A stretch of 64,000 nt of DNA. Source: Haliotis asinina. Taxonomy: Eukaryota; Mollusca; Gastropoda; Lepetellida; Haliotidae. The DNA lies in the NCBI RefSeq assembly GCF_037392515.1, contig NC_090281.1, forward strand, positions 55,592,753 through 55,656,752. The letters are read 5' to 3'. The position numbers were made by a program, and so were the translations under genes. Under the pieces are notes generated by a model, which was not told the origin of the DNA, did no database searches, and saw only the letters and a list, made by a program, of their open reading frames with translations. This document shows, piece by piece, positions 17,204 through 50,324 of the stretch. Positions within the stretch are counted from its first letter, which is position 1; each line of letters begins with the position of its first letter.

Positions 17204-20989
<3,786 letters not shown>

Positions 20990-27299: not shown

Positions 27300-28350
27300 T
27301 TTTAGTGATCATCAGTATGGATGATTCAGAGAAGAACTTGATTTTAGAGCATTACAACAAGGACATCAGATCAGCTGTTTATCGCGTTTTGGAAATTTTT
27401 GCAAATGGATATGGCACTGAACACCGAATGCCATAGTGTTAACGCCTAATTACCTCCTTATCTAATAACCGAAACATCGAATTTATTCGGTTTTCGACGG
27501 TGGATACCACGGAGGCACAGGCAGGACCGGAAAACTGACCGTCGGTGACAGAAGGCGGCTTGGCATTCTTGTTTCTAAAAACAAACGAATAGTTTAGGAA
27601 ACTTAAGGTTGCATATGATCGATAGAGGAACTGTGGCTGTCAGTACTAAGAACTGAGCTACATGCAGTGGGTTTGCAGGAAAGTCGAGGAGCCGATCATG
27701 AAACTTAAACAAAAGAAGCGAATGTTGAACTGTTTTTTACAGCATAGAAATTTTAACTGGGACAATGTGTTATCTCAGATACAAGTTCTGTGTAGCTGTT
27801 TCCTAAAACACTGAAATGCTGGACCAAACAAATTTAAAAACCTTGCCCAGCGCCCAAAGTACAGTCCGAAATTTAACGTGTGGGGTGGCATCTGTGTTAG
27901 GGGAAACGCCTGTGTGTTTTAAGGAATATGACCAGTGAGCCGTACGCAGATATTCTCGTGGGACATTTTCTTCCACCTGCTCACGTATTCTATGGAAATG
28001 TTTGGATTTTCCAGCAGGACAACGACCCAAAACATCGTTCACAAGCATTCTCAGGCCTCGTTTCGAACCCAAAATATGACATTCTTACATTGGCCAAGCT
28101 ATAGTCCTGACCTAAATCCAATAGAAAATGTTTGGGGACTTATGAATAAAAGTGTCAAAAAGAAAAATCTGACAAATATTGCTGCAATGAAGGAAGAGGT
28201 GGCACAATACCGGGACGTTATGGGCCACGACTTTCTAACTTCTTTGATCAGTAGTCTGCCCCGCCGCATTAAAGCCGGCATTGCTGCCCATGGTAACTTC
28301 TGTCACCTGTCTTTGAATCTGGAGTTATGTTCTGCTAATGTTCACATTTA
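27300..28350 (+). mobile_element. Tc1/mariner-like transposase remnant
   Basis: GGTGRTGKLTVGDRRRLGIL (about 27495-27560) is a typical inter-helix region. FQQDNDPKHRSQ (about 28008-28043) carries the second Asp, and YSPDLNPIENVWGLMNKSV (about 28098-28155) the Glu. RRIKAGIAAHGNF closes the C terminus near 28300. The reading frame is broken several times and I did not find convincing terminal repeats. Confidence 0.85.
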
Positions 28351-28698
28351 ATGCGTGAGTAATTAGTGAAATATATATAATACAATTTCCAATCCTAAAT
28401 TTATCAATAATTTCTGGTCATACTATAGCTGCGTGATGCGTATTTGGGCGCTTGAGACTAAGCAGAATCAAGCACTCCGCATCACGCATACATGGAAATA
28501 GCTGTTATTATTATAGTAGAGTTGTTTACGCACAAAGCACTGCGCCCACATGGAAACCCGGATTTAGCGTTGCCTTATTTCTGGTAGAAGTCGTCCCTCT
28601 GAAACGCATCGATTTTGGACCAGACAATCCTGAGACGTGGTAAACGTCCTTATAGATTAAGTGTCATTTTTGTTACAGAATTTAAAATGATTAAACAC
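28351..28698. other. Intergenic with a short hairpin
   Basis: GCGTGATGCG (28431) and its inverse CGCATCACGC (28479) form a 10-bp stem. A possible SINE family 1 scrap (TTTTGGACCAGACAATCC) lies at about 28612. Confidence 0.4.
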
Positions 28699-30944: not shown

Positions 30945-33900
30945 TCACCTGCAAAGAGAAAAAGATGATTAAACATACGTTGTACCACTCCATTCAAGCG
31001 ATACGTCCATGGGATTCCCAGTATGAATGTATGCCACACGCAAAAGAAGTCATTCAGTCAGTCGATATGGAGGATGGGGATAACCATTTAGGATGGGTAC
31101 TCAAAATGCCTATCTGTTCAGCTGCAGCAGGAATGAACTGGTGTAAACATTTGGCAGTTCCTTGTTGTGGACTGCGCGTGTATGGGCTCAACATGTACAG
31201 AGAAAATGAAATTACAGATGAAATGGTGAGCTTGACCACCCGATCCCGTTAGTCGTCTGTCACAAGCAAGGGTTACTCGAGACCCACTTCAAACCCCGAT
31301 CCTCACAGGTACATACATACTACAGACAAAAGGTGCATAAGTCGCGATGATTCTGACCACTGGGGACTTAACGCCCAGTCTGTTACAGATGTTTCAATCA
31401 AATTATGAGCGGACCTGAGAAGAAGCAGCCTCGTCAAATACAAACAGACTGTCCTCAGTCTCCCGAACCGGTCCTTGGAAGGTGGCGGTGGCTTCCTTCG
31501 TTTGGGCGAACCTGAAACAGAAATAGGCCTAATCTATGAATTGGCATTTGGGTTGTCCCATTCAAAATTAAGAGTGAGTGGTCAGTTTTACGTCGCTATT
31601 CCAGCAATTTGTCAATTATGACATACCGTGTACTTCCCCCGTTTGATTCCCCTTAACGATTGTCGTTTCTTAGTTAATATCCATGTCCCAGCGCGACCCC
31701 AACCATCGTCTGCAGTACCCGTACTGGTTTTGCTTTTGAGACGACCCCTCCACCTTGTTTCTTTTTGTAGTAAAAGTGAGACTCCACGGTTGTTACATCC
31801 TTAGTTTCAGTATCAAGGTTACTATTTGTGATGTAATTGTTTCATGTATTGCAGGTACGTTTAGACCACTTTCTTGGTATGTCTTTGTTATCAGACATCG
31901 TTTGATTGAAAACGTCAAGACATTTCTCGAAAAAGGACCATTCCACCGAGTCGAATGCTTTTTCAGAGTCTTATAAGTATCAAAAGTCCAAGTTTATTCA
32001 TATATTCTGTGGAGTCCATTATGTCATTAAGCATTCTTGTACATTCTCCAATGTATCTACCTTTCATAAAACCCTTTTGATCTTCACTAATTATATTAGG
32101 AAGTCTGTTTTTAATACAAGCTGATATCACGGCTTTATAGGATATGTTTTTTTTTCAGATTGTCCCTAGATTTATCTTTTATACATGTTATGAGACCTTG
32201 ATTTTGGCTCATAGATAGCTCACCTTTCCGATATGGTTCATTTAATGAACTGATTAAGTATTTATTGATATCTTTCCAAAATAATTTATAAAATTCAGCT
32301 GTAAAGCCAGATGGACCAGGGCTTTTTCTATTTTTCATATTTTTTAAAAGAACTTTGTCGTGTTGTATTTCGCCTTCGACTGAATGGAAGGTCAGATAAT
32401 CCAGGTATTTCACTATGTTTGAATAGAAATTCTAGATCGACATCTTTGGCACGTTTATTGGTACATAAATTTTGAAAACAGGTCTTTGTATGGTTGATGA
32501 TATCCTATGGTTCACTTATTTGCCCATCGTGTAAGAAATTCTGTTTTCCAGAAATAAGAAATTTCACGGTTTTCTCTGTTTTATACCATTTTGCTTCTGA
32601 TCTCAATATAATGCCTTCTCTTTTGTATTTACTTAATTCAAGTTGTTAATTTTTTATTGTATTAACTAATTCTATCAGTTTTTACTTATTCTGGTCATTG
32701 TCAGTACTGTCTAGTTTTATTTCGAGGCTTTCAAGTGTTTCGTTTATTCTTCTAGTTTAAGTCTTTCTTTCTTTTTCCGAGACGAACGTTTTATTGCATG
32801 GCCTTGAATATTACCCAGGAGCACCTGCAAAAACACATTAATTTATCTTTAGTACTTTATCCCCATCTTCGTCTCGAGTGTGCCACTGATCTGCAGTTTC
32901 ATTAATAATACCTTTGATTGCTCGCACATACTTGGGATCATGTAACAAACTGTTGTTACATTTCCAAATACCCTTTCCTTTCTGGAGAGATGTAAATTCA
33001 ATATGTAACGATATTACTAAGTGGTCTGTTCGGTAACTAGGTTCTATTTTAGAACTAATGATAGAGTTTTCCATATTTCTACTAACGAGAAAGAAATAAA
33101 TGTACTCGTTTCAATGATTTGGGTTTTCTCCATGTAAAAATATACTTACATCTAAATTTAATTCTCGCCAGGTATCATAGAGGTTAAGATCATCCATCGT
33201 ATCAAGTACTGCTTGAAATTGAATTGGGATTATTTGTGTGTAAGTAATTGAAAATATCTATTGATTGATTTTAGACTAGATTAAAATCGACGCATATTGT
33301 ATTCGTTTGAGTTTCTAGACTAAGTATTTTATTTCTGATTTTATGATATAAATCGGGCTTATCTATATTTGAACCATAGACATTTGTAATGCTTAGTATC
33401 TAAGCTATTTACTATTTTGTACGTCAGCTATCCTTTTTGATAAAGCTATGTCTAATTTCAAAGTGGTCATTTTCAAAAGTGGGTTTTGTAATACAATATC
33501 ATCGCACACTATTTTGTTCAGAAATATTGTCTGTTAAAAATAAGTCACCTTTGAAGAAAAACGCTTTAATCATTTCTGTATTATTCTCTCAGCAAAATCC
33601 CTTTTTGCACGTTTTTTTTTTTCTATCTCCCTATCACTGAACCTGTAGTTAAAACTTGTGGAAGCTGTCTAAACTGGCACCTTTGGGAATGATGAAATAA
33701 TGCGGTTTGAACAGCGTGCCGATTTGTAAAGCTGGTAAGGTTACGTACGACAGAAATATTTCTCGCACATAGATCTAGTACACATGTAGATAATCCAACT
33801 TGGGTCGTCAGCGTGTCGCAAGGACGCTTTAACCTTTCGGCTACACCACCGCCCCTCAAAATTAAGGGGTTTCAGTTTGTTTCCCGATCCGCTGAACGTT

Positions 33901-35026
33901 CGTAGGGTTACGACATTCTTAAGTCTATGATAAACTATTTAGCTGCAACTGTTCGTAGTGTTACGACATTCGTAAGTCTATGATAAACTAGTTAGCTGCA
34001 ACTGTTCGTAGTGTTACGGGCGTTTGTGGATCTTGACTCGATAGTAATTTGTTCACTACAGTCTTTCTAGTTCCACTAAAATAACAAAACAATTATTGCA
34101 GTTGTTTTCAAACCCATATTACCCTGACTCCACACAAACAGTATCCATTCTATACATACGTTGATGCCTTCTGGATAAAGATAGGTGCAGGAAGCTGCGA
34201 AGTCGTCGGATTCCGGCGTCAGTGTCCGACTGGGGGTCGGATTCAGAATCATCTTTGTCAGCAGCTATCTCACCAAGATCATTATCATCGTCAAACCTGC
34301 CAAAATCCTCCAGGCTGCTGGAATCAACATCATTGACTACGGCATCGGGATCCTCGTTGTCCAGGATTGAGTCTTCGTCCTCATAGCTACGCCTCTGTTT
34401 TTTCGATTTCGTCCGTTTCGATAATCTCAGGGCATATTTCGCGTATCTTTGTAAACTGGACCAATTTCTTTTACGAGCAAGGATCGCTCGTCTGTATAGA
34501 TTACACACGCGAACTACAGCCAGCAAGAACTTGGTATCCTTTTTGCAGATTCTCTTCTTTGCTGAAAGAGTGAACCGGTCAGAGTTTTGCGCCACATTTA
34601 GCAATATTCAAACAGCATCATGGTGGGGGACATTATGGGTTTTCAGCATCGTGCCTGAGAGGTGAATTGAACCCTAGTCTCCGCGGTGACGAGCGAACGC
34701 CTTAACCACTAGGCTACCCCAGGGCCCCTTCAGTCTTGGATGATACAAATCCCTCTACATGGACATTATTAACGTTAAAGACCACTGGGTTCAAGGTAAA
34801 ACAATGTGTTCAAGACGATTACCATCGATGATTAATACTTATCGATACCATGGAGAAATTGTTGGACAAAGAAACGTCAGTAACCATTTTACATAGATGT
34901 ATATTATCTTGGTAAATCGCTATTGGGTTTGTGATATACCGGTAACAAGGGTCCGTCTTCATACCTACCGGACGATTCTGTCAGACTGATGCAGATCAGG
35001 AGGACAGCCAGTATCAGCGGCTTCAT
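30945..35026 (-). CDS. Gene D: secreted charge-block protein, tandem paralogue of gene C
   Basis: Family not recognised. Coding exons 35026-34969, 34561-34160 and 31511-31415, and exon 4 from 30948, where the third to first bases 30947-30945 are the stop TGA; 186 aa. An untranslated first exon ends at 39162 (GTGAGT donor), and exon 1 adds five bases (GCGAG) before ATG. Signal peptide MKPLILAVLLICISLTESS. Residues 20-66 are basic and helix-prone with C25 and C39 and the motif RVCNLYRRA. Residues 78-136 are acidic (Asp, Glu, Ser). Residues 150-174 are basic (SPKRRKPPPPSKD), then C176 and a leucine-rich end. Exon 3 is 97 bp in both paralogues and all intron phases agree. Intron 2 holds a LINE remnant. 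The odd number of conserved cysteines (three) could allow dimers through disulphide bonds. Function unknown. Confidence 0.78.
31228..31310 (-). repeat. SINE family 1 fragment in intron 3 of gene D
   Basis: GAGCTTGACCACCCGATCCC through CCCCGATCCTCACAGG. If exon 3 were not spliced, its reading frame would end at a TGA in this SINE end (31303-31305). Confidence 0.85.
31573..31640 (-). repeat. SINE fragment
   Basis: GTGAGTGGTCAGTTTTACGT and TATTCCAGCAATTTG, the shared tail only; family 1 or 2 cannot be told. Confidence 0.6.
31905..33640 (-). mobile_element. L1/Tx1-like LINE remnant inside gene D intron 2
   Basis: Read on the minus strand, an endonuclease part comes first: NVYGSNIDKPDLYHKIRN and ICVDFNL near 33270-33390, DDLNLYDTWREL near 33180, and YRTDHLVISL at about 33000. 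The start of a reverse transcriptase follows: NRKSPGPSGFTAEFYKLFWK (about 32280-32340), then ISEDQKGFMKGRYIGE near 32060. Several stops and shifts break it. The element stops inside the reverse transcriptase, so its 3' end is lost, which is not the usual 5' truncation and implies a later deletion or insertion. Confidence 0.85.
33780..33857 (-). repeat. SINE family 2 fragment (head only)
   Basis: GACGCTTTAACCTTTCGGCT and ACACCACCGCCCCT, the tRNA-like head. Confidence 0.82.
33898..34020. repeat. Tandem repeat, 53-bp unit, 2.3 copies
   Basis: GTTCGTAG(G/T)GTTACGACATTC then TAAGTCTATGATAAACT, twice, plus the start of a third unit. It lies 140 bp from exon 2 of gene D. Confidence 0.88.
34577..34729 (-). 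repeat. SINE family 2 copy abutting exon 2 of gene D
   Basis: Tail TTTTGCGCCACATTTAGCAA at the left, head TTAACCACTAGGCTACCCCA at the right. It begins only about 15 bp upstream (in transcription sense) of the exon 2 acceptor, so it supplies most of the branch-site region. Confidence 0.88.
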
Positions 35027-35533
35027 CTCGCCTGAAATTAACCAATTTCATTTTCACGTGGGATACCAAAGAGTTGTTTACAGGTATGCTGAGATATTTT
35101 TGGGAAATGTATCGAAAACTATGAAAAAAATCAGATAGTTGCAAAATGGTTGGTCACAAGAGCATTTAAATGTTAAAGTTATGTTATGATTTTTAATAAA
35201 TTTGCCTTGATGTTCAAACAGAAAAATATGAATCCTCCATAAAATTTCCAGCCCCCATTCCAACCACCACCGCTATGACCTCTATCCACGAACAGAGCTA
35301 CAGATAATGTTTTGGGTCACTGAGTTATGTACTCGCTTGTGTTCATCTTAATTTGATGTTCTAATTTTACTTGGAGTAACCAAATGAATTGCACCCATCT
35401 GCCTCAAATTCAACTGGGTATTTTGTCATTTTCCTTCAATTTAAACAAAAAAGATAAATATTTAAATGTAAGTGTTTGTGTTTGATATGAGATATGAGCA
35501 ACGATAAGAAATACTGCACGTTGTCAAGTTTAC

Positions 35534-35732
35534 AAGGTCTGTAAATAATAGAGTCTGGACCAGACAATCCAGTGATCAACAGCATGAGCATCGATCTGCA
35601 CAACTGGACGTGTCAACCAAGTCAGACAGCCTGACCACCCGTTCCCGTTAGTCCTCACTTACCACAAGCATAGTCGGCTTTTATGGCAAGCATGGTTGCT
35701 CAAGGCCTATTCTACTCCGGAACTTCACGGTT
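35534..35732 (-). repeat. SINE family 1 copy in intron 1 of gene D
   Basis: GGTCTGTAAATAATAGAGTC through TATTCTACTCCGGAACTTCA. Confidence 0.9.
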
Positions 35733-37372
35733 ACTATGACCGATGTATGCTCCCGCCACAAACCAAGTCACTTGTGTAACTGAACACACGTAAACGCAAG
35801 TCAAAAGTAAAACGTTACAACTGCTTCGTACAGGATAAGGACCTTAAATGTCATGAATGTTATTTTAAAGGTTTACAGATGTCTTTAATATTGTTGTCAC
35901 GATGAACCGTCGTACGACCACCCCTACATGGTCCAACAGAGCCGTCACATATTGTCAAACGGCAAACACTAACAGCAGTGAATCCCGCCATCAGAAACAT
36001 TTAAGCTATATGCAAGTTGTCAAATAAGGGCAAGACAAGTGTTTGCTTAAAGATCACATATACTTTACGGGGTGCAAATGCATAAATGACTCATTGACAT
36101 CGTTATAAATGAAACCCTGTCATTAAAACTGCTCATTTCGATCTTTAATTACCTTAAATGGACCTTTTTGACAACAGTGCACAATTCTCAGCTGCAAACA
36201 AATTTTCAACCAATCAGAGCGGCGCGTCTCCGTGACGTAATAGTAGGTACAGATATGAGGGTATATGCAGAATTCATCTACATTTCAGGTAGTAAACTAT
36301 TTCGTTTAAAGGTTTGTACAAAATAAAAGCTATGTGATCTCACAGTCTACTATCATTTAGTTTTGTCTCCTGCTTTGCCTAGTTTCCGAGTTACGAACCT
36401 TGTTTTCATAGACGATTCTGTCAAAATCACTTGGTGTCTCGAGGCTGTAATCCGTGTAAGGTGGTATAAACCTACACGTTGTTTGTCATCATTCACTTGA
36501 TGCTCGGTTAATGAATTCATAACAGGTATAATTAGTGGTAACGCCACTTAGATTACCCGACAAGGTCCTCATTTGGCACTTCTTGTGTCTGGATCGATCA
36601 AAGGATTTACCAAAACACGCTGATTGATTAATTAAGTTTTATGCGGATTTAAATGGGTAGTGTTTATGTATGTACATTTACTAATCTATACTGAATACAC
36701 TCTGTCGTGTCTGTGTCTATGTAAGAACAACACCCTTCTTTCAAAGGATTAACCGCCAATACATTGATTGCTCATTATTGGCTAACTAAATTACTTATTT
36801 AAAAGAATGACGCACATTATGCAATTAGTTGTCAGGTGTGCTATCTTGGGCGACTAATGACACTGTACAGCAATGTGAAAAACCTGAACCGATACATAAA
36901 GTTTTCCTATATTAGACACATCACTTGGGACATCTGCAGATGAATAATAGATTACTCGTTTTTGTGGATATTGATGGACACATTCCTCGAGCAAGGTAAT
37001 AGCCTGACATTGCACCCATAACTTTAGTTTGTTTTAATTCTAATACTTGCACTTTGTTTTTATTAAGTTGTCATTATGACAGCTTTCAGCAGAATCATCG
37101 TTTCCATCGTGAAGCGTAATGATACAGACGATATACACTAGGGCGTGCGTGCGAATTATGATTTATATAGGAAAACTATAAAACGTCTACATATTACATA
37201 CCTGTCATACATTCGCAGATCACTTTTTAATAAGTTTCAAAATGCATTCAAGTGTGATTATATAGTAATTAGGATTATGCGACCAAATATAAAGACGTTT
37301 ATTGACAAGTGTCTACATACTGCGAGTGAAAGTTACAAACGAAGTAAATTTAGCAAGTGAAGAACTTTGTTC
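35733..37372. other. Intron 1 of gene D, no further feature
   Basis: AT-rich; ORFs of 64-71 codons here have no recognisable content. Confidence 0.45.
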
Positions 37373-37855
37373 ACTTCGACCCCGATCTCGCTTATGTTAC
37401 AGGTTGTGTCATGCAAAATCTTTTTGGTCATGATTCAAATACATATTTAACTACTAGTGGAAAGTAGTTTTGATTTTCTAACTTGATGAAAACAAGCCAT
37501 CATCTCATTAATTCAAATTAACTTTAGTCCGTGACCTCACCATTTTAAAAAATGGCGGCGCCCTGTCTGAGAATGAATGCTATTTAAGTTGCTTGCAATA
37601 TTAATATCACTTCGACCCCCACCTTGCTTCAGTGGAAGAAATCGTTATGTTACAAGTTGTGTAATGCAAAATCCTTTTGGCCATGATTCAAATATATATT
37701 TCACTACTAGTAAAAAGTAGTTGTGATGGTCTAACTTGATGAAAACAAACCATCATCTCATTAATTCAAATGGACTTTGTCCGTGACTTCACCATTTTAA
37801 AAAATGGTGGCGCCCTGTCTGAAGATAAATGCTATTTAAGTTTCTTCAAAATTAC
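37373..37855. repeat. Tandem duplication, two units of about 240 bp
   Basis: Unit 1 (37373-37608) and unit 2 (37609-37855) share ACTTCGACCCC, TTATGTTACA(G/A)GTTGTGT, AACTTGATGAAAACAA, CATCATCTCATTAATTCAAA and CACCATTTTAAAAAATGG. They differ at roughly one base in eight and by small indels. Confidence 0.9.
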
Positions 37856-38593
37856 TTTTCACTGGTAGTAAAATGTGTATTTTATTGATGGACATTAGGA
37901 TTCTACATGACATTGCTTATAACATTAGCCTTTTAGGCACTTTTAAGCGCATGGTATTGATTAACCACAATTTCTTTTAGAAAAAGAGTGGTGTTCCGTT
38001 TATGACTAACTAGAAGTCTTTCTTATGCAGTGATTAAAAGAGTACCAAAAAATTGAGTTTAGTTCTGTAACAATTGAGATGATCAATGAGATCCGTTCAC
38101 ACGACCCATAAGAAAAATGGACCCCATTTCAAAAAGGGATCGTAACACTATACATGCCGTAAGCAAGTGTTAAGGAATATGACTTACGACTGTCGTAATG
38201 ATACGAGCCTTTTGTGAAATAGGACCCTTGTTATAGAATACTGGTCTCACTCAACAAACGTCCCAGCCGTGTGGCGATGGTGGCTTGAGACTCACTCTTA
38301 TTACTAATATCAGGCTCTCGGGACAAAGTGATATCTCACAAGAAAAACACGCACATTTTGATCACATAAAAATCACAGATAGGTCTGATTATATTGTTTT
38401 CAGTTACCACTGCCGGGCTAGGCGACAGACCCAACATCTTGAGCTTCTCTCGTGGAGAAGGAAGGGGACCTAGGGAAGCCCTGTAGGTAATGGATTGAGC
38501 CTTCATTACACAATCTCGTCACAGGCAGTCTTTTAGCCAACAGTCCCCAGTGTCGAGACATTTGATGTGCACCTACATCTACGAGCCAGGCTA

Positions 38594-38707
38594 GCTATTC
38601 TCGAAACGTCCGTAGCCTTACGAACTTCTTTTACCCATTCTTAACACATTGGCTACGATTTAAGTTAAGAATTCTTAGGGCTACGAACGTTTTGAGAATA
38701 AGGGCCC
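38594..38707. mobile_element. Foldback MITE-like repeat
   Basis: TATTCTCGAAACGTCCGTAGCC (38596) and GGGCTACGAACGTTTTGAGA (38679) are inverted with few mismatches, with a loop rich in TTAAG. Related TACGACTGTCGTAA motifs occur at 38185 and 38735. Confidence 0.65.
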
Positions 38708-38893
38708 AGCTCCATGTCACAAAGCTCAGGTAAGCGCTACGACTGTCGTAAGTCTGTTATATAGTACGTGAGGTGGGGCGTAGCGCTACAATAGCTTTGT
38801 GAAATGAGGCCAAGGCTACCAGAGGAGTCAGTCCCGTCTGAAATCTGCTCACGCCCTATACAGGATTACTCAAAGTGATGTTATATTATAAAT

Positions 38894-39100
38894 GGTAAGA
38901 GTTCCTCCCGTTCCCCCATCCTAGATAATATCTATAACTTGATATATCCTAGAAGTATTAACGAAACGTAATACAACAGTTACTAGAGGACTCTAAAATA
39001 AGTAAAAAGCCAAAAATTAGTACAACGTATAGGATTAACAGGTTACATCTGTTCATCTGCGGAAGAAAAAAAATATGGACAACGGAAGGAACTCTTTCCC
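38894..39100. mobile_element. 207-bp inverted-repeat element in intron 1 of gene D
   Basis: GGTAAGAGTTCCTCCCGTTC at the left and GAAGGAACTCTTTCC at the right form imperfect terminal repeats of about 27 bp. A matching element lies at 49823-50030, in intron 1 of gene C, at the same distance from the promoter. Confidence 0.7.
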
Positions 39101-39212
39101 CTTAGCCATTTTCTGGCATTTTTCTATACGCTTTCAACACAACATATGCCGAAACACTCACCTTTGGCAGACAGTTGATGTTCCAACGTTCTCGCCGATC
39201 GCTGACGTGTGT

Positions 39213-39250
39213 CACGTGGTTTTTATCCATTCGTGCACGTGAAGCACGTG
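39213..39250 (-). promoter_or_regulatory. Promoter of gene D: TATA box between CACGTG palindromes
   Basis: GATAAAAACC (39218-39227, minus strand) lies between CACGTG at 39213-39218 and CACGTG at 39236-39241, with a third at 39245-39250. Gene C has the same arrangement. Transcription should start near 39190; the donor of the untranslated exon is at 39162. CACGTG is the canonical bHLH-type E-box. Confidence 0.6.
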
Positions 39251-39495
39251 TTGCAAGTGGCCCTTTATAATTGACAAGGAGATGTTTGTAATTTTCAGGG
39301 TAACTCGCCTTAGGTGAAGGGGTGGCTGAGGGCGTCTGAAGAAATTCAAACACTGTGTCTTTATTTCGAAATGATGATTTTACGTTTGAAGGATTAATTT
39401 CATCAGAAAAATTTTCAGTCCTAGAAACAATGTCGGCAACATCGATATCCCTTGCATGTCACATTTGTTTTGGTATCAATAGAGGAACTGACTGG

Positions 39496-39590
39496 TTGTT
39501 GTTTTACGCCGCGCTCAGCAGTACTCCAGCTATATGGCGTCTGTCTGTAAATCCGGACCAGACAATCTGATGATGAACAGTATTAGCTGT
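39496..39590 (-). repeat. SINE family 1 fragment
   Basis: TTTTACGCCGCGCTCAGCAG, TATATGGCGTCTGTCTGTAA and CCGGACCAGACAATC. Confidence 0.85.
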
Positions 39591-39611
39591 TAGTATTTGA
39601 ATTAGCATTTT

Positions 39612-39752
39612 CTGTTACGTCGCTTTTACCAATATTCTTGCAGCATCGCGTCCTAAAATTAGAAATGGGTTTCATATTGTACCAGTGTGTGGCAGTAGAA
39701 CCCTGCCGCTCTGTAACGAGCGAGCACTTCAACCACTCGGCTACCACCACTG
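39612..39752 (-). repeat. SINE family 2 copy
   Basis: TTACGTCGCTTTTACCAATA at the tail, GAGCGAGCACTTCAACCACT and CGGCTACCACCAC at the head. Confidence 0.85.
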
Positions 39753-40454
39753 GAGAAGTTTCATTCATCACATTCACAGAGAAATGAATGAATATAATAC
39801 ATCACACCAGGCCAGAGGATTATAGTTTTCTTTTTTCATATAACTGATTTCGCATCTTTGCTTTGATGCTTTTATGAGGAACTTGATTTAACACTTTCAA
39901 GATATGATGTGAAAATGTTTTGGGCAAAAGGAGTTCTCTTACTACATGGATGATAGTGACATAACCAAACCAAAAATATCTGAGCAAAGTTAACAAACGT
40001 TCCTGACCGAGCCTTCAGCTAAAAAAATGAATTATTAATATTTTTACAAAACTGCAATAGCTGAAACCCATTTTGCACTGCATCTTCCAATGAGCAAATG
40101 AAACCATTTCCTGAATCTAAAAAAATTATCGTATATTTATTTGGACTCGGATTATTTCTAGAGCTCAAAAGATACAGTTTGTAATAAATCTTGATAAATA
40201 AAACATATCAAAATAATACTTCGCAGTGCAGGGTTTGTCTAAATATGTCTAATAATTATACATAAAGAAGTTAGTTAAGCACCGCCTGACATATCTCATG
40301 ATTGAATAACAGGTGCGCAGCAAGCCAATTCTTTCGTGTAAAGCTTTATATTATGGTATTTGACTATATTTTTGGCAAGAATTAGAAGGAAAAAAATGAA
40401 AAACAATTATTTGTTCATAAATGTAGTTTCGCCCCTGAAGAAGATGCGATTTTA
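39753..40454. other. Intergenic between genes D and C, no gene seen
   Basis: AT-rich, no supported ORF. Confidence 0.45.
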
Positions 40455-40660
40455 ACCCATTGGAGCATATCTGGGACATAAGTGGTTGTCGTGTACGACA
40501 CAGGGATTTCCCTGTACACAACCTGGCCCAATCGGAAACTGCTTCACACGAGGAATGGTGTGGACTGGCCCTGCAGAGGATCAGGAGACTGACACGAGGT
40601 ATGAGGAGGAGAGTGCTGGCTGTCATACAGTCACATGGAGGTTACACTCGGTACTGACGT
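40455..40660 (+). mobile_element. Tc1-like transposase C-terminal fragment
   Basis: One open stretch reads EHIWDISGCRVRHRDFP, VHNLAQSETASHEEW and RRVLAVIQSHGGYTRY. This is the region from the catalytic Glu to the C terminus of a Tc1-type transposase; the rest is missing. Confidence 0.85.
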
Positions 40661-41348
40661 TGAACCGTGTAAGACACGCGAAATGATATTCTGAGTGTTT
40701 GCATTCAACAATAAATTAAACATGAAACATTCCTTGGTTCCGTATGAAAATCAGTGAGTTTGTTCAAAATGACCAGTTACCACCATAATGTTAATGGTTT
40801 TTTGGGGGTTTTTTCTTAATTGAGGTATTTGCGTATAGATGTGTTCAACTGACTGGTTGACCAAATATTCCGTTGGGTATTGTTTAAAATGTGTGAAATA
40901 TTGACATTTAAACGGTAGTAGTTTTCACGAACATAGCACTCCCAAATGTAAGCACTATTGTTGAAGTTACCAGTCTTTTATTGTACATATAAGTCACGTC
41001 TAATGTCAGTGTAAGAAAACTAAGGCTCAGTATTATTTCTTCCACTGATATACTCAGTCTATCAAACCTCAGTGAAAGGTCGTGTCAGACTAGGACCAAC
41101 CGGACTTGGGCCGATTGTGGATAAAGTAACGCAATGGGCGTTTTTAGTATTTGGAATCCAGACAATTTTACATTTTACCTATTTAAAAGGTGCTGATCGC
41201 GAAAAAATATAGCAACCCGAAATACTGAAAAACAATGGCCGCCAAAATCACCTAAAATAGGTGGGTATCCACAGTATTTTCGCCTATGACTTTCTTAAAT
41301 GTGGGAAATTTGTCATTTAAAAGAGTGCTGATCGTGAATAAATATGCA

Positions 41349-41808
41349 CATGCACAAAAGTTAAGCGCCACTACTTTCATAGTGTCTTGATTTCACCACT
41401 GACGATCAGAAATACAAACTATAGTAGTCTTCCATAGATTCTTGAACCTAAGATTGTCAAGATATGACAAGGAAAACGTTCTGCACGTGCAACTCCATTT
41501 CCCTTCCATCTGAAACTTGATAATCAAGTTTCACCGGTCTGTTATGAGAGTCTTCTTTCTGTTTAGAGTTAAAAAATCAGTCATGGTGAGGAGAAAGTTA
41601 ACTACCGCTGAGAGATGGCATGAAAAATGCTGGCATGTCATGCAGGGCCATTGCAAGGCAAATGGGTCGTCATCACCCGTTTAGTTGCCAAACAATCAAA
41701 CCAATGATGTTAATGACAGTCATAGATCTCGTTATGATAGTTACCATTGAGTATCCATAGTAACAGATCACAAATATAGTGGGTGGCGCTTAACTTTTGT
41801 GCATGTGA
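41349..41808 (+). mobile_element. 460-bp Tc1-like deletion derivative
   Basis: CACATGCACAAAAGTTAAGC with GCCAC at the left (41349-41373) and its exact inverse at 41784-41808 form the terminal repeats. Inside, 41600-41700 still encodes an N-terminal HTH-like piece (NAGMSCRAIARQMGRHH) and nothing else of the transposase. The centre also holds a GAAACTTGATAATCAAGTTTC palindrome. Confidence 0.85.
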
Positions 41809-42111
41809 ATAGACTTTAGCTGAAAGTGTTTTTGGACTCGGAAAATTGAAACAAAATGGTCGCCATAGTCGCCGCCAGTAGTGGTTGGTGAGCATGTTAT
41901 GTCATCACTCGTATATCCAGAAATACTGTCCACGTGCACGTCAAGTTAGAATAGTTGTGTGCAGTTGTTTCCAAACGTGCTTTTTTTTCTCGCTCAACGG
42001 CGATGGGTCAACATGGGCAACCCAGTCTTATAATGCAGTCTCCCATCCTACCAGTCATGCTGTTGGTAATGAATCCGACCTTGTGTCTGGTGACACTCCT
42101 TTGACAGCGTC

Positions 42112-42295
42112 TACAGGCCATCAACAACCCATGCTAGGTGCAAGATTAACGGAATCAGGTGGTCAGACTCGCCAACTTCATTGATATCGGTTCTATGCTC
42201 ATGCGGTTGATCACTGGATAATCTGGTCCAGACTTATTTGCAGACCTCCGCCATGTAGCTGGTACATTGCCGCGTGCGGCGTAAAACTAAAATCA
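42112..42295 (+). repeat. SINE family 1 copy (sense)
   Basis: CAACAACCCATGCTAGGTGC through GTGCGGCGTAAAACTAAAAT; the first part is worn. Confidence 0.88.
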
Positions 42296-42883
42296 AAACT
42301 TATTGCAGGTTTGAGTATCGTATGTTGTAAAAAGACGATAGTGTCTACGATGGATGTTCACCATTATCAAGTTAATAAGCGTTTTAAGGTCTACTTACAT
42401 TTCAAGATAAACTTGAAATTTCAGTAGTCTGTAACTAACAAGTTCACACTTTCCAACTATTTGGAGGCGGGTGGTCCGACTAAATATTAAACATTACGCT
42501 CGATTCTATTCATTTGCAATTTGTCGCACAGTTATCAGTTGTCTAGTGTAAAGCTAATTTAAGACTACAACTGCTGTTATTGGATTTCTACTGTTCACCA
42601 GCAATATTTTTAGCCTTTGCTACGGACTTTCTAAAGACGCCTACATCCTGCAAATGCACGGACCTGTTAGACTAATGTCCCGTTTTCTGGGTGATCGTGT
42701 TTATAGTGTGGACACTGGCTATGTGAGACTTGCGGTCGAGAGTTCGAATCCCTGTCACATCAAAATCAAGTGTTAGTTAACACCTGGTTTTTGCATCCGG
42801 ACGGGCCTACTTCCCAACCTGAGCCAACATACAGCAATATGCCTGACCGTATTTTTGTGTTTCATCTTTTTGCCTCCTCCCTG
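42296..42883. other. Intergenic, no gene seen
   Basis: A tRNA-like B-box phrase (AGAGTTCGAATCCCTG) at about 42745 suggests a further, undefined tRNA-derived SINE. No cloverleaf can be folded around it. Confidence 0.35.
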
Positions 42884-43138
42884 ACCCGTGAAGGTCCGGG
42901 ATAGAATAGGTCTTGAGCAACCCATGCTTGTCGCAAAAGGTGGACTACTTTGTAAGAGGCGACTAACGGGATCGGGTGGTCAGGCTCGCCGACTTGGCCA
43001 ACACGTCATAGGTTCCCATTTGCGCAGATCCACGCTCATATTGTTGATCACCGGATGTCTGGTCCAGACTCGATTATTTACAGACCGCTGCCACGTGGGA
43101 TATTGTCGAGTGTGGCGTAAAACTAAATTCACTCATTC
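42884..43138 (+). repeat. SINE family 1, full-length sense copy
   Basis: CCCGTGAAGGTCCGGGATAG through GTGTGGCGTAAAACTAAATTCACTCATTC. Confidence 0.93.
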
Positions 43139-43880
43139 CCTTTTCCCTCTGAAAAATTCTGATAAGGACCAACAAGTGTAGGCGTCATGCATTACGCCAT
43201 TGCAAATGCCGTCACCTTTTCACGCAGGTGAAATACGTTTTAACTTCCTCATTTGATTTGTTTCGAAAGTTAATCGAATATCTGCATTATGAAAGGGCTT
43301 GTCGATTTATCCAACGTTTGAAATGAGTTCTAGAATTAGTGCTAGACAATCATTCACCACTCGCTCCTTTCCATAACCTCGCTATAATTCTTGTCCTGGA
43401 ATAACGAGTTGGTCACGAATGGCTAGTCACCGTGGGACACAACACAAACTACGATTGACCTTGCAGGAAGACATTCAAAGCTTTTTCGAAGCGACTGCAT
43501 GTGCGGGAGAGTCGGCATTTGTGTACGATTTCACTCAAATGGTCCTTATCACCAATTATTATACATGTATTAGTCATCAGCAATAAATCGACACGTCACT
43601 TTCGCCTTTCAGTATTCATTTACTTCATGCAAAACTAGAAGTAACGTGGGAAGGCCGTTCATACACCCAGTAGCCATGGCAATTGCCAGGAAAAATTACG
43701 ATGTTCTTTTGTAGTAGTATACATGAAAAATACTAGGCAAACGAAATGACTTAACGATAGAAGCCGATGAAACTAATACATAAGGATATGGATAGTGGCA
43801 ACAGAAACATGATTCTGTAATGGTAGATGGCATATCACTCGGGTTCATAAAACACTCAAATCAAGTTCGCTTGAGCCAGT
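43139..43880. other. Intergenic, no gene seen
   Basis: Downstream of the gene C poly(A) signal. No supported ORF. Confidence 0.45.
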
Positions 43881-43886
43881 TTTATT
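43881..43886 (-). terminator. Poly(A) signal of gene C
   Basis: AATAAA on the minus strand, 62 bp after the stop codon in exon 4; gene D has the matching signal at 30909-30914. Confidence 0.7.
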
Positions 43887-43947
43887 GATGTTTTAAGGGT
43901 TATTTTGTTGTTTTTTTTGTCCTTTTCAGTATGAAAACACTGGTCCT

Positions 43948-46900
43948 TCACCTGCAACAAAGATGAGAAACTTCAATGAGCAATAATCGAATTTACACGT
44001 CGTTGCCAAGGCATGATATTGAGGGTTTGTGCAATTGTGTTTGGGACATACAAGCTGGCTGGCGATGTATTGGTGTCTTCAAAGGCGACACTATTAACGG
44101 GGCGAATGCTGGAATGAAAAGGTTTTCCGCCGCTTTCAGCAATATCACAGGTGTCGCCAAGAATGCAACGGGCTTCACAGAATGTCTTCATTTAGGGGAA
44201 TCTAACCCAGACCGTTGACGCGACATCCAACGCTTTAGGCACAAGGCTAATCCATCATTCCACTAAAGTTAAAACACAGCACATTTAAGGTGGATTTGTT
44301 TTAAAGGACAGTTGTGTGTAGTCCTGTGCTCAGATCAGCAATCAATTGGAATAAAGCAATGACCAGTTACCTGATTCTGCAGTTTGACTCAAATTTCTAA
44401 GACTTCAGTCTAGACCCATAACGAAGCACATGACATGTATCACCATTTGATACTGTTCAAAATTGCCTTGTTCAGACCGTTGTAAATGGGTATCTATTTT
44501 GTAGGTCGGCACAGGCTGCCTGAATTAACCGAGGCAATACATTGTGTGCGCATAAATTGTCCTTGGCACCAACGAGCTCTGTAAATGTGTTATATACTAC
44601 CCATCAAAAGTTTCGATCCACTCAAGGCTCTCATTACATGTCATGTGCATATAAACAATTCAATAAGGTAGGGATATTCCATTTTGCAAGAAAAATGTAT
44701 CCATACAGACGAAACATTTCCAAAAGAAATACAATGTCACATCTCCCTTAATTTCGCTTCGTTTCCTCGGAGTCATTTTCATTTTATCATTCATGTAAAT
44801 CCAATATCCCCTACTTATTTGAACGCTCTATATGCAGAGAGTTTAGTTTTACGCCGCACTCAGCAATATTCCAGCTATGTGGGAACGGTCTGTAAATAGA
44901 GTCTGGACCAGATAATCTAGTGATAAGCAACAAGAGCAAAGATCTGCACAACTGGGAAACGATGACATGCGTCAACCAAGTCAGCGAACCTGATCACCCG
45001 ATCATGTCAGTCGCCTCATAGTGACCTTTTATTGCAAGAAAAGTTTACTGAAGGCCTATTCTACCCCGGACCTCCACGGGTCATATGTAGAGATACCAAC
45101 CCTTACGCTTTTGACCGAATAATTATGGCATTACACTTAATATGCGAAAAATTACGCTTTTCTACTGCTTTTAGGAAAAGCAAGTGGATAAAGTTTCACA
45201 ACTTCAGTTTCGTAACCCAATAACGTAGGGGTTAAGAAATTGTCTTGCGGGGATAGAAACGGCCTATTCTTAGAATCGCGCTCATTCCAATAAGGCACTG
45301 ACGTATATTGTCTCACCTGACAATTTTTGATGCATGGAGTTTCATGATTAGTAAACGTACTTCTGTCTAGAAAATGCCTTTTGTGAAACCGTTAACTATC
45401 ATAGCGACCGGAAGATAAGTACTTTTTGACGTCCAGTGTTACACTTGGGGTTGGTATCTATACGGCTACATCGAATGTGAATTTGTACACTAACTTGGGG
45501 TAGCCATCTGCAAACCAAATGAATTTCACGAGTATGATGCATCAAATTACTGAAAAGCACAGGCACACATTGTGCAGGTTAACAGCCGTTTTGGTGTAAA
45601 GTTTTGTTGAGGATTTGCCAATTTTCACCTAGTTTTAACCACAATCTTTTCAATGTTACGAATTTTGTTACAATACATCAGTTCATGCGGAAACAGTACT
45701 TCAAAATGTATGGAATATTAAAAATGTAGCTCCGAACTAGTTCTATGTAAATACATGTAATTAACTTTAACATTCCGTAATGGTGCCTTTGTGTATGTAT
45801 ATATATATATATATATATATATGTTTATATCCATCTCCGTATAGTGTATTGCACATTGTCTTAACCTTAACGATTTAATCACTTGGGCAAATCACTGGTC
45901 AAACCTTTTAGTCATTGGACCAAACGACTGAACCAAGTGACTTGTCGTTTCAGTCATTACACTGAAATGACTGCTTTGACAAACATTTCAACATTTGGGA
46001 TTGATGAGCTAATTGTTAACGTACCCTTGGTACAACAGCCTTGACATCTTGTAACACATAATCCTCAGACTCCTGAATGGATCCTTTGGAGGGCGTCGTC
46101 TGTTCTTGCGTTTTGGGGCACCTTCAAAGAAATATAACAAAACATGTTGGATGTTTACACAGCTACGAGTGACCTGTATACAAGTGATTCAAGGTTTGAG
46201 CAACGATCCACGCCACAAGGGTTCGAAGCAATAACTTCGTTGCGGAGCTAGCCTGTTCTAACGTGCTACTGGTGCGCAGTAGTATTTGTATACATGCTGT
46301 AAAGTACGCCGCTTCGCCGTAATACCGTTAAACTACGTAACCTGTAACCCCAAACTAAAGCTTAGTCCGTGAATATGCAATTTTAATGAGTAACAAATAA
46401 ACCCACCGAATTCACAAAGGAGCCTCACCGAGCTGGGACATTCAAGAACCTGGGGAAGTCTGGACTTGCTTCAGTTACAGATTTAGAATTGCAGATAGGG
46501 TTACAAGTATGCAGTCAGATATTGAATTCCAAGGGATAATCTCGAGTCATTTCGAGACATTGCGTCCAGATATTAAACATCAAGGACAAAATAGTTAGGG
46601 ATAGTTGTAAAGTTTGAAATTATGAAAGATGTATTTATTGAAACTGATAAAATACCAGTCAAAATATTAATATCCAACTTATTTTGTCCAGTATATTTTA
46701 AAATAAAATTTGCACCGCCATCTTGATACAGATGAATGTGAAGTAAACAAGTTAAATTTAATATTTTGTTTTGCACACACCGTTAGCAAATAGACTGGAA
46801 AGGGCTGAGCCCCGTCTACGCAAGCAGACGAATCTCTTGTTAACAGCCGTGGTTTGGTTACAAAATATCGCTGGATCACTTAATGCGCTTGTTGCTTTGG

Positions 46901-48946
46901 GCTTTTTTCGTTTTATGTCGCACTCCGCAATATTCTATATGGTGGCGGTCTAAATTTAGTCTGGACAATCCAGGGATCAATAGCATGATCATTGATATAT
47001 ACAATTCGTATACGATATTTGTCAAGTCAGCGAGTCTGACCATCCGATCCCGTTAGTCTTTTACAATAACCATGGGTTGAAGATCACTTCTAACCCGTGT
47101 GTTCACCGTCAGTTATTGACATTTGCCAATGTGCGCGCACAACACCGACATCGTTTCCGATTGGGTCTTTCTCTTTGACAGTGTCAAAAGGGCCTTACAT
47201 ATGTGGTAACAACAATTTCTCAACTACTCACGTTTGTCCCTGTATCTGCCGGACTCCTCCAGATATCGGCGGAGTTTCTGGATTTCGGCCTCTGCATCCG
47301 ACTGTTCAGACGGATCATCTGATGAGTCTTCAGCGTCATCATCTACATCGTCCACGGCGTTCCCGCGTTGGTCGTCATTGTCTGGGATGAAAGAATCTTC
47401 GCCGTCAAAGAAGTTACCAGTACCAGCGTCATCGAAACTGAAGTCGTCTTGGTAGCTGCGGGTCTTTTTATTATCTTTGCCACCCTTGCCTTTATCCTTC
47501 TTGTTTTTGCCACTGGACTTTGGTTTGGGCGGTGGTTTGTTTTTCTTGAGGGTTAACACCAGTGCATAACGAATGTACTTTCGCAAAGAAGGCCAATTTT
47601 TCATGCGGAATCTGGTGGCTCTTCTGAATGCATTGCACACGCGCATGACCGACACAAGGAAATATATATCCTTTTGGCAGAGATTCTTTCTTGCTGCTGC
47701 AAAACCAGAAAAGATATGTACGAAAATGTTTCAGTGTGAGTGGGTTTAGTTTTACGCCACACTATAGGACGCTATAGGACGGCGGTCTGTAAATAAGTTG
47801 GTTCAAAGGCATTTAGAAGTTGGATGAATCAAACTAAAAGTACTTTATGGTTCAACTTCTTTATTATACAAGGTCACAACGTTTCGAGACAGATTCTAGT
47901 CTCTTCTTCAGGTGAAGTGATTATGAGGTGATTACATCACTTCACCTGAAGAAGAGACTAGAATCTGTCTCGAAACGTTGTGACCTTGTACAATAAAGAA
48001 GTTGAAGCATAAAGCACTTTTAGTTTGGTCTGTAAATAATCGAGTCAGGACCAGACAATCCAGTCATCAACAATATGAGCATTGATCTGCTCAATTGGGA
48101 ATCGATGACATGTGTCAACCAAGTCAGGGAACCTGACCAACCGATTCCGTTACTCGCCTCATACAAGCATTTATGTAATACCTCTAATCTGAAGAATATG
48201 GGGAACGAAAGGCCCCCTCATGGGGGAGTGGACGGGATTGCATGCAAGTGGGAATGGGAAGAGGTTGATGTTGTGTTGGTGGAGCTGAATGGCTTGATTG
48301 ATCACCGCCTTGTACTAATATATTCACGTATACATGCCACAACCATGAGTATGGCTGTATGCCATTTGTATAGCAATATTCTAGGAATATCCACATACAC
48401 AGAAAGGATATTATATGGATATCAGTGTCAGTATTGTACAACCGAAACCGTATTGCCTATTGTGTTCCTACAACTGTGCAAAAACAAAACAAACCTCTCA
48501 AAGCAGGTCTGATGGTAGTCTAGACGCTTCCAATTGATTTGACTGTCCGTTTGACAAGCCAGACAGTTGTCTTAGGTTCGAATGGCTGTCTAGTTCCATC
48601 TCTTTCTAGCCCTCCATCCCAACCCCTTCTACATGTACACTCCCACCCTCCATCATCCGGGATAACTGGAATACTCTTACACCCAACTTAATGACAAATA
48701 CTGAAGGGAGGGGGAATACATTAGAGACATTAGACACTAGAGATGGATTCACACATTTTACCCACGTGAGGAATCTAACCCGGGTCTTCGGCAGGACGAG
48801 CGAACGCCTTAACCACTAGGCTATCCCATCGCATCCTTGAACCCGGTTTAAGATTTCAGCTAATACCTACGTGGTTTCTTTTTCCTTTTCTGGCATTCCA
48901 TCGACCCGATACAGAGGACCAGGATGACCAAGAAGAGGATCTTCAT
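43948..48946 (-). CDS. Gene C: secreted charge-block protein, tandem paralogue of gene D
   Basis: Family not recognised. Coding exons 48946-48871, 47696-47232 and 46121-46025, and exon 4 from 43951 with stop TGA at 43950-43948; 213 aa. The untranslated first exon ends at 50235 (GTAAGA donor), and exon 1 adds CAAAG before ATG. Signal peptide MKILFLVILVLCIGSMEC. Residues 27-75 are basic and helix-prone with C32 and C46, 14 apart as in D, and share RVCNxxRRA, NWxSLxxY and YAL with it. Residues 76-105 are a Lys/Pro/Gly linker longer than D's. Residues 107-163 are acidic; 164-181 a charged helix; 182-194 basic (APKRKNRRRPPKD); then C203 and MSRLLYQG. The acceptor of exon 2 is a CAGCAG tandem, so one alanine may be optional. 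DKR before APKRK could be a dibasic cleavage site. Could be a body-fluid, matrix or gamete protein; nothing in the sequence decides. Confidence 0.78.
44120..44262 (-). repeat. SINE family 2 copy in intron 3 of gene C
   Basis: TTCCGCCGCTTTCAGCAATA, GGGGAATCTAACCCAGACCG and CGCTTTAGGCACAAGGCTAA. Confidence 0.82.
44836..45083 (-). repeat. SINE family 1, near full-length copy in intron 3 of gene C
   Basis: GAGAGTTTAGTTTTACGCCG through CTATTCTACCCCGGACCTCC. Confidence 0.93.
45799..45822. repeat. (AT)n microsatellite
   Basis: Twelve AT units in intron 3 of gene C. Confidence 0.92.
46905..47108 (-). repeat. SINE family 1 copy in intron 2 of gene C, worn
   Basis: GTTTTATGTCGCACTCCGCA, GTCAAGTCAGCGAGTCTGAC and CATGGGTTGAAGATCACTTC. 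Confidence 0.85.
47797..48026. mobile_element. Hairpin element family, copy 3, inserted in a SINE with a 13-bp duplication
   Basis: GGTCTGTAAATAA at 47784-47796 and 48027-48039 is the target duplication. A leader (GTTGGTTCAAAGGCATTTAG) precedes two inverted arms of about 90 bp (47831-47922 and 47935-48026), which differ at very few places. Each arm carries a hammerhead-like core. It lies in intron 1 of gene C. Confidence 0.88.
47942..47983 (+). ncRNA. Hammerhead-ribozyme-like motif in the right arm of copy 3
   Basis: TCAC (half of stem I), CTGAAGA (core, fits CTGANGA), one extra A, stem II GAGAC/GTCTC with loop TAGAATCT, GAAAC (core plus stem III start), GTT, then GTGA pairing with TCAC. Cleavage would fall between 47979 and 47980. 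Stem III has only two possible pairs and no loop, as in the minimal hammerheads known from Penelope-like elements and animal retrozymes, which act as dimers. The extra A before stem II is a departure from the strict consensus. The left arm has the inverse copy. Confidence 0.45.
48725..48836 (-). repeat. SINE family 2 fragment in intron 1... upstream side of exon 2 of gene C
   Basis: GATTCACACATTTTACCCAC, GGAATCTAACCCGGGTCTTC and CGCCTTAACCACTAGGCTAT; the tail is missing. It lies 35 bp beyond the exon 1 donor, in the intron between exons 1 and 2. Confidence 0.85.
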
Positions 48947-49822
48947 CTTTGCTGTAATGGACAATATATTTACAGGGAGGGACAAATGCAGTTTACAAAA
49001 AATGCAATTCAAAAACAATGTCATCCCACTGTTTTGAAGTTTCTACAAAGTGGAAAAAATCGGCAAATTGTGCGACTTAAATTTAGATGGCACGAAGGTA
49101 TGATATTTTGCAATAATTGTTCAAAGCTTTGCGGGAAACAGACGTTATATAATTAACGACTGAAATATGTAAAGGCAGCATGTGGGTTACGGTGATCCGG
49201 ACAGTCTTTACTTGAAGCTGTATCATTGCAGGGAGGGAAACTAGTTGAGGGACAGACTCCCTTTCAAGAAAAGTATCTAGAAATTTCAAGATGAGAAGTT
49301 GCAATTTCTAGATAGTTACCAGGAAAGGAAAGAGTTAGGCCCGTGAACCCCTATTTTTACACATGTTTCCACCTTCCTCGGTGTGATATTCTAACACTGA
49401 AATAAGTATAAGTAAGAAATGTATATGTAAGGTGGGGTATGCATGTCCGTTTGTAATTTTGGCTTTTGATTGGGGTGGTAGGTAGGGTCGGAACTCTTAC
49501 CCCTGGAAACGAAGTTTAAATTTCAATATCCTACACTAATATGAAATTTCAAGATATACCAACTTGGAATTTCAACTTAACATACATTTTGAAAATTTGA
49601 CAGGTTTTCAACTAAAGTTCATCCTCAAAGTCTACGTAATGCATTGTCTTGCAAACAAAGTCATTTGAGTGATAACAGATCATGACCGTTGGCGTAATCG
49701 CACGCAGAATCGGAGCTTCACAAGACATTGATGTTCAGAGTGTTTTTTTCAATTGTCTCGCTCTAATCGTCAACACAGAACCTAAAAACAACCGTTCAAT
49801 TTGCGCCTGCCTACTCGGTAGT

Positions 49823-50030
49823 GTTACGAATTCCTTGCGTTCCCCCATCCCAGATATCTGCAAATTAATATATACTAAAATTCTTAACAAAACCTAACAA
49901 TTACTGGAGAACTCACAGAAATATCTAAAAGCCTAAACATCAATTACAATATATAGGGTCAAACCACACTGCGTTGCATCTGTTACTCTGCGGTAGAAAG
50001 AAATTGGGGGAACGGAAGGAACTCTTTCCC
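49823..50030. mobile_element. 208-bp inverted-repeat element in intron 1 of gene C
   Basis: GTTACGAATTCCTTGCGTTC at the left and CGGAAGGAACTCTTTCCC at the right form imperfect terminal repeats. It aligns throughout with 38894-39100 and sits equally close to the promoter, so both were probably copied with the gene. Confidence 0.7.
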
Positions 50031-50294
50031 TCGGTAGCTATAGTTGCACGTAATTTGAAAGGGGCTTTATTATAAATTGGAACTGGCCCAAGGAAAACAC
50101 TGAAAACTATGTGGGTTGTATTGGGGTTACAATTAATACGCTTTAGAGAGATATCGCGTTGGTTTTCATTGCAATACAAGATTCAAATCATATTAAATAT
50201 ACTTAAACAATAAATTCAGTAGCAATACTCTTACCCTTTCAAAGTCAACTGCCCGCTCCGACTTCAAACTGACGTCTGCAGAGTGCGGGCTGGC

Positions 50295-50324
50295 CACGTG
50301 GTTTATATTCAACAAGTGCACGTG
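50295..50324 (-). promoter_or_regulatory. Promoter of gene C: TATA box between CACGTG palindromes
   Basis: GAATATAAAC (50301-50310, minus strand) lies between CACGTG at 50295-50300 and CACGTG at 50319-50324, spacing 24 bp against 23 bp in gene D. Transcription should begin near 50271; the untranslated exon donor is at 50235. Confidence 0.65.

Follow-up and report, generated by a model that had tools for sequence, protein, structure and literature searches.

We describe a tandem pair of related genes on the minus strand, here called C and D, in a 64,000-nucleotide stretch of the genome of the abalone Haliotis asinina (the window; positions below are window positions unless a contig or locus is named; Table 1). 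The pair had been picked out in a first-pass annotation, which claimed that both genes encode secreted proteins with alternating blocks of charge and that they agree in exon number, intron phases and promoter layout. The gene models were checked by reading the sequence and by splicing the exons in silico. The coding exons measure 58, 402, 97 and 4 bases in C and 76, 465 and 97 bases in D, where a last piece follows. The introns that follow the first three coding exons have phases 1, 1 and 2, identical in C and D, and five bases separate the acceptor from the ATG in each gene (gcgag, caaag). The shared phases, the third coding exon of 97 bp and the five-base gap could all be read from the sequence and the spliced exons as had been reported. 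The acceptor of the third coding exon of D (46121) reads AAG, and the remaining acceptors of both genes read CAG. In C, the stop codon is built across the last junction (AG/G TGA) and an AATAAA lies 31 bases further. At the end of D, the acceptor before 45549 is the stronger one and the residues that it would append include three cysteines, whereas the acceptor before 45316 is weaker and would give a stop at once, as in C. The equal exon number of the two genes is established only as far as the 97-bp exon; beyond that exon D has two candidate last acceptors. Two elements were seen by eye within introns: a long, nearly perfect inverted repeat at about 47845-48010, between coding exons 1 and 2 of D, and reverse-transcriptase-like frames of the long interspersed nuclear element (LINE) type in an intron of C (31963-33110, minus).

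Table 1. Coordinates of the window and of the features of genes D and C (a slash marks a splice junction or a putative cleavage site).
Feature	Position	Strand	Description
Window	G000:C2:55592753-55656752		part of a 1.14-Gb genome
D promoter core	50295..50324	-	TATAAA flanked on both sides by CACGTG boxes
D 5' untranslated exon	50235..50277	-	start inferred from TATA box; donor AAAGG/gtaaga
D first coding exon	48871..48951, coding 48946-48871	-	five untranslated bases, signal peptide (MKILFLVILVLCIGSMEC...), phase 1 out
D second coding exon	47232..47696	-	basic two-cysteine helical part, KKTR/SY site, acidic block, short helix
D third coding exon, 97 bp	46025..46121	-	basic proline-rich tail, one cysteine; starts at second basic site RDKR/APKRK
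D last-exon region	45316..45549	-	two candidate acceptors, before 45549 (~50 more residues) or before 45316 (immediate stop)
C promoter core	39213..39241	-	CACGTGCAC...GATAAAAACCACGTG
C 5' untranslated exon	39162..39197	-	start inferred; donor CCAAAG/gtgagt
C first coding exon	34969..35031, coding 35026-34969	-	five untranslated bases, signal peptide (MKPLILAVLLICISLTESSA), phase 1 out
C second coding exon	34160..34561	-	basic two-cysteine helical part, KQRR/SY site, acidic block, short helix
C third coding exon, 97 bp	31415..31511	-	basic proline-rich tail, one cysteine; starts at RHQR/SPKRR
C last coding piece	30945..30948	-	finishes AGG, supplies TGA stop; AATAAA at 30914-30909

The two proteins share the order of their parts, which is a signal peptide, a basic part with two cysteines, an acidic block and a basic, proline-rich tail with one cysteine. 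The signal peptide and its cut site were judged by eye in both, and the signal peptide occupies a separate exon in both genes. Past the signal peptide, the successive blocks carry net charges of +21, -16 and +9 in C and of +28, -18 and +10 in D. The degree of charge segregation, scored in 20-residue windows, was matched by none of 5000 shuffles for C and by none of 5000 for D, which bears out the alternating charge blocks of the first-pass annotation; its block order was likewise recovered for both proteins, as was its cysteine placement, with a pair in the basic part and the third in the tail. Runs of aspartate reach three residues at most (by eye). AlphaFold2 models of the segment that coding exon 2 encodes in each gene predict a helix with block-mean predicted local distance difference test scores of 73-91 (residues 6-50 in C, 7-51 in D) and a second, short helix at the end of the acidic block (109-132 in C, 129-152 in D). 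Most of the acidic block was modelled at low confidence in both proteins, and it is predicted to be disordered over most of its length. In both proteins the acidic block has a basic border on either side, the first reading KQRR/SYED in C and KKTR/SYQD in D and the second RHQR/SPKRR in C and RDKR/APKRK in D. The second border coincides with the junction of coding exons 2 and 3 in C as well as in D.

The C and D proteins align along their length with 35% identity (blastp expectation value (E) 2e-25). Five blocks could be aligned, comprising 135 codons out of 186 in C and 213 in D. The proportion of synonymous differences in these blocks was 0.617 (pS) versus 0.345 (pN) for non-synonymous differences, which corresponds to a synonymous divergence (dS) of about 1.3 and a non-synonymous divergence (dN) of about 0.46 (Fisher p 7e-6 for the synonymous excess, on rounded counts). 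With this synonymous excess in the blocks that could be aligned, both genes look constrained. Judged by sequence, C and D are old copies of each other, that is, predicted paralogous protein-coding genes, and with their common layout they stand as the tandem related pair that had been proposed.

No named family with this architecture had been recognized in the first-pass annotation, and the Pfam and PDB searches, which returned no credible relative, agree with this. At E up to 1, hmmscan found no Pfam families for C and three for D, all of them below their own cut-offs; among the PDB sequences one chance-level chain was obtained for C (E up to 10) and three for D (E up to 1), none of which was credible. 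In the portions of the open-licence literature that were available, neither a match to C or D peptide strings nor a paper describing C or D was found. An insulin-like layout was dropped, as the tail has one cysteine and not four (by eye). The genome itself was searched with a procedure that scores the best candidates only, so that a very distant copy could escape, and matches at E 0.7 or more were treated as chance. The search with D gave six matches (three D exons, a C exon, and one piece each on contigs C6 and C1). Six were also obtained with C (three C exons, a D exon, the piece on contig C6 and a place on contig C5 at E 1.0) and with the basic part of C, three of the latter at E 0.7 or more. 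The pieces on contig C6 (G000:C6:71044067-71044285, locus L029; 209 bases, 84% DNA identity, one stop in translation of the match) and contig C1 (G000:C1:101788139-101788234, locus L033; 77 bases, 88%) are recognizable as decayed fragments of the second coding exon of D. No convincing further copy was present in 80 kb of flanks (50 kb left, 30 kb right; eight loci). As the genome matches consist of C, D and fragments, the genes look like a two-gene family with decayed fragments in their own genome. What is unusual about C and D, as an orphan family of their lineage, is the order of their blocks; the family is unmatched in the libraries and papers searched and is not a new kind of system.

The claim of a shared promoter layout was supported by a genome-wide motif search. 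The core motif CACGTGCAC-N10/11-AAACCACGTG has two matches across the genome, one before each of C and D, and its reversed control has none. A looser motif (CACGTG, TATAAA, CACGTG) matched the genome 11 times versus 10 times for the reversed control, which is chance level. The specificity is confined to the fuller motif, and the looser layout is uninformative. In four stretches of the lysin region the promoter core was not seen, and upstream of lysin there is only a single CACGTG, close to a TATA-like sequence (L016:8696). A repeat of about 210 bases lies in the first intron of each gene (49822-50030 in D and 38893-39100 in C, minus), where a block of 218 bases is 72% alike between C and D. 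A search of the genome with this block gave 472 candidates, and the best 40, which were scored, comprise the D copy and 39 others (74-85% identity, on many contigs); the C copy is not among the 40 scored. A role of the block as a shared enhancer was dropped, the genome-wide copies on many contigs showing that it is a genomic repeat, and it says nothing on regulation.

Upstream of D, the window contains exons of the ribonucleotide reductase large subunit (56863-63656, minus; PF02867 in all four frames scanned). Tc1-like transposase frames (PF01498, PF13358) lie on the plus strand at 19398-20219 and 27932-28351, and a long, microsatellite-like frame coding for aspartate (187-708, minus) is probably a simple repeat.

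We tentatively propose, as a reading that falls somewhat short of probable, that C and D are secreted proproteins which are cut at the conserved basic borders of a disordered acidic block, and that this block neutralizes the cationic parts in storage. In the secretory path, the acidic block would lie along the basic parts and serve them as an internal counter-ion, which would let a very cationic protein be made and stored densely. A secretory granule would be the natural storage site, be it the sperm acrosome or one in haemocytes or a mantle gland. Furin-type enzymes would cut C and D on either side of the acidic block, at its conserved basic borders. On release, the acidic piece would fall away and the cationic N- and C-terminal pieces would be freed, perhaps joined via the third cysteine. 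The most likely role of the acidic block would be that of an internal counter-ion while the protein is made and stored, to be cut away afterwards; the tissue, the cutting and the function of C and D are what we infer. Among the conjectural roles suggested in the first-pass annotation (condensing with mineral or nucleic acid, self-condensation, and splitting at dibasic sites), cleavage at basic sites appears to be the best supported, because the basic sites share the same two borders in C and D and the second of these falls on an exon junction.

Several observations weigh against this proposal. The precursor is not neutral, its net charge being +14 in C and +20 in D, which weakens a simple charge balance. 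The cleavage sites are motifs only, and KKTR and RHQR are weak as furin sites. Both structural models have a low predicted template modelling score (0.27 for C, 0.26 for D) and were built on two-sequence alignments. Amphipathicity is not general, only two of eight segments being reached by fewer than 5% of shuffles; among the four N-terminal helix segments tested, helix 2 of C alone stands out (12 of 2000 shuffles). The dN/dS of about 0.36 across the alignable blocks was obtained from blocks picked for alignability, which lowers dN and somewhat flatters the contrast. Finally, the C-terminus of D has two possible ends, depending on which of its last acceptors is used.

Other identities can be given to the same proteins. 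In a host-defence peptide precursor, the cationic helical part would be active and the acidic block would keep it harmless until cut, and the very cationic helical segment with hydrophobic stretches, the acidic segment, the basic border sites and the signal peptide are all consistent with this. Defence peptides with an acidic propiece, such as the mytilins and myticins of mussels and the defensins of vertebrates, resemble C and D in having a cationic part and an acidic segment behind a signal peptide, but they have disulfide-rich cores. Against a defence precursor, no Pfam match of such a kind was found for either protein at E up to 1, the number of cysteines in the mature chain is odd, and helix 2 of C is the only clearly amphipathic segment of the four; we consider this identity unlikely. 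A shell-forming matrix protein, with charged disordered blocks acting on mineral, appears improbable. According to excerpts of one study (PMC6003135), abalone shell often contains proteins that are disordered or very acidic, and MSP-1, aspein and prismalin-14 are named there as molluscan acidic shell-matrix proteins. C and D have aspartate-rich stretches in common with them. The known shell proteins are described in the same excerpts with repeats and biased composition (PMC6003135), whereas the acidic block of C and D is short and sits between two strongly basic parts, and nothing in the analysis ties either gene to the mantle. The degraded pieces of the second coding exon of D on contigs C6 and C1, together with the last exon of D, which has two candidate acceptors, could be taken to mean that C and D are decaying or never-translated duplicates whose open frames are remnants, but this is very improbable, given that open frames, splice sites, promoter cores and the synonymous excess are all kept in both genes.

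An acrosomal fertilization protein, either interacting with the egg or serving as a packaging partner, overlaps with the proproteins proposed above and would fix their tissue, but we think such an identity rather unlikely. A lysin-family cluster is present in the genome (G000:C14:26671878-26685731 and 26918092-26918244), the Egg_lysin profile having six matches, all on contig C14, in two groups about 232 kb apart. A lysin-type first exon at L016:8210 reads MKLLVLCTLAMMVTMAMSRSW, the signal peptide of abalone lysin. These egg-lysin genes by themselves mark the genome as almost surely that of an abalone. In Australian abalone, the distance from the lysin pair to the sp18 pair is given as 233 kb in an excerpt of PMC9022041. 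Lysin and sp18 are, like C and D, secreted, cationic and helical, and the wide divergence between C and D (35% identity) would suit a fertilization protein. An acidic block of the kind found in C and D is not present in lysin and sp18, however. Membership of the lysin/sp18 family (Egg_lysin, PF01303) was rejected, as hmmscan of C and D gave no profile match at E up to 1, and homology to the lysin of the same genome is unsupported, the alignment score with the joined lysin exon pieces being reached by 147 of 1000 shuffles for C and 54 of 1000 for D. The dN/dS of the alignable blocks further indicates constraint and not positive selection, and the exact promoter core was found at C and D only.

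The closest parallel to the proposed charge pairing also comes from abalone sperm, which keep cationic proteins with acidic partners. In excerpts of the study concerned (PMC6952181), FITZAP is described as the acidic disordered partner that packs cationic lysin and sp18 in the acrosome, with charges of +12 to +24 for lysin and sp18 and -6 to -16 for FITZAP; particles of lysin/sp18 and FITZAP appear at 150 mM salt but do not occur at the salt level of seawater. The masses of FITZAP fit cleavage by furin and carboxypeptidase B, and FITZAP (sp6), of about 6 kDa as predicted from complementary DNA, has a first exon with signal peptide and poly-aspartate and a common second exon (PMC6952181, in part). 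C and D share with FITZAP secretion, a disordered acidic stretch, putative furin-type processing and the bringing together of cationic and acidic partners. FITZAP and its cationic partners are distinct proteins, whereas in C and D the two charges lie within a single chain, which has three cysteines, and the signal peptide has an exon of its own. Membership of FITZAP was rejected on gene layout (sequences were not compared), because C and D have three or more coding exons and do not encode the signal peptide together with the acidic stretch. The length of the aspartate runs in C and D is not decisive, because the poly-aspartate run of FITZAP varies from 1 to 11 (PMC6952181, in part). In a more specific version of this proposal, which we regard as improbable, C and D would be acrosomal proproteins that package themselves: each would be a cationic sperm protein with a FITZAP-like acidic partner in the same chain, and condensation would be driven by charge in cis and undone by cutting and seawater salt. 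If true, such self-packaging would be a second, unlinked abalone solution to storing cationic fertilization proteins at extreme concentration.

Abalone are a classic system for fast-evolving secreted proteins, and C and D make up a family that is small and tractable, has gene models and is without a relative in the libraries searched. Should they prove to be no more than secreted orphans, they would count as ordinary lineage-specific genes in need of annotation. If the acidic block does act as a built-in counter-ion, C and D would offer an elegant example of a single gene that encodes its own charge balance.

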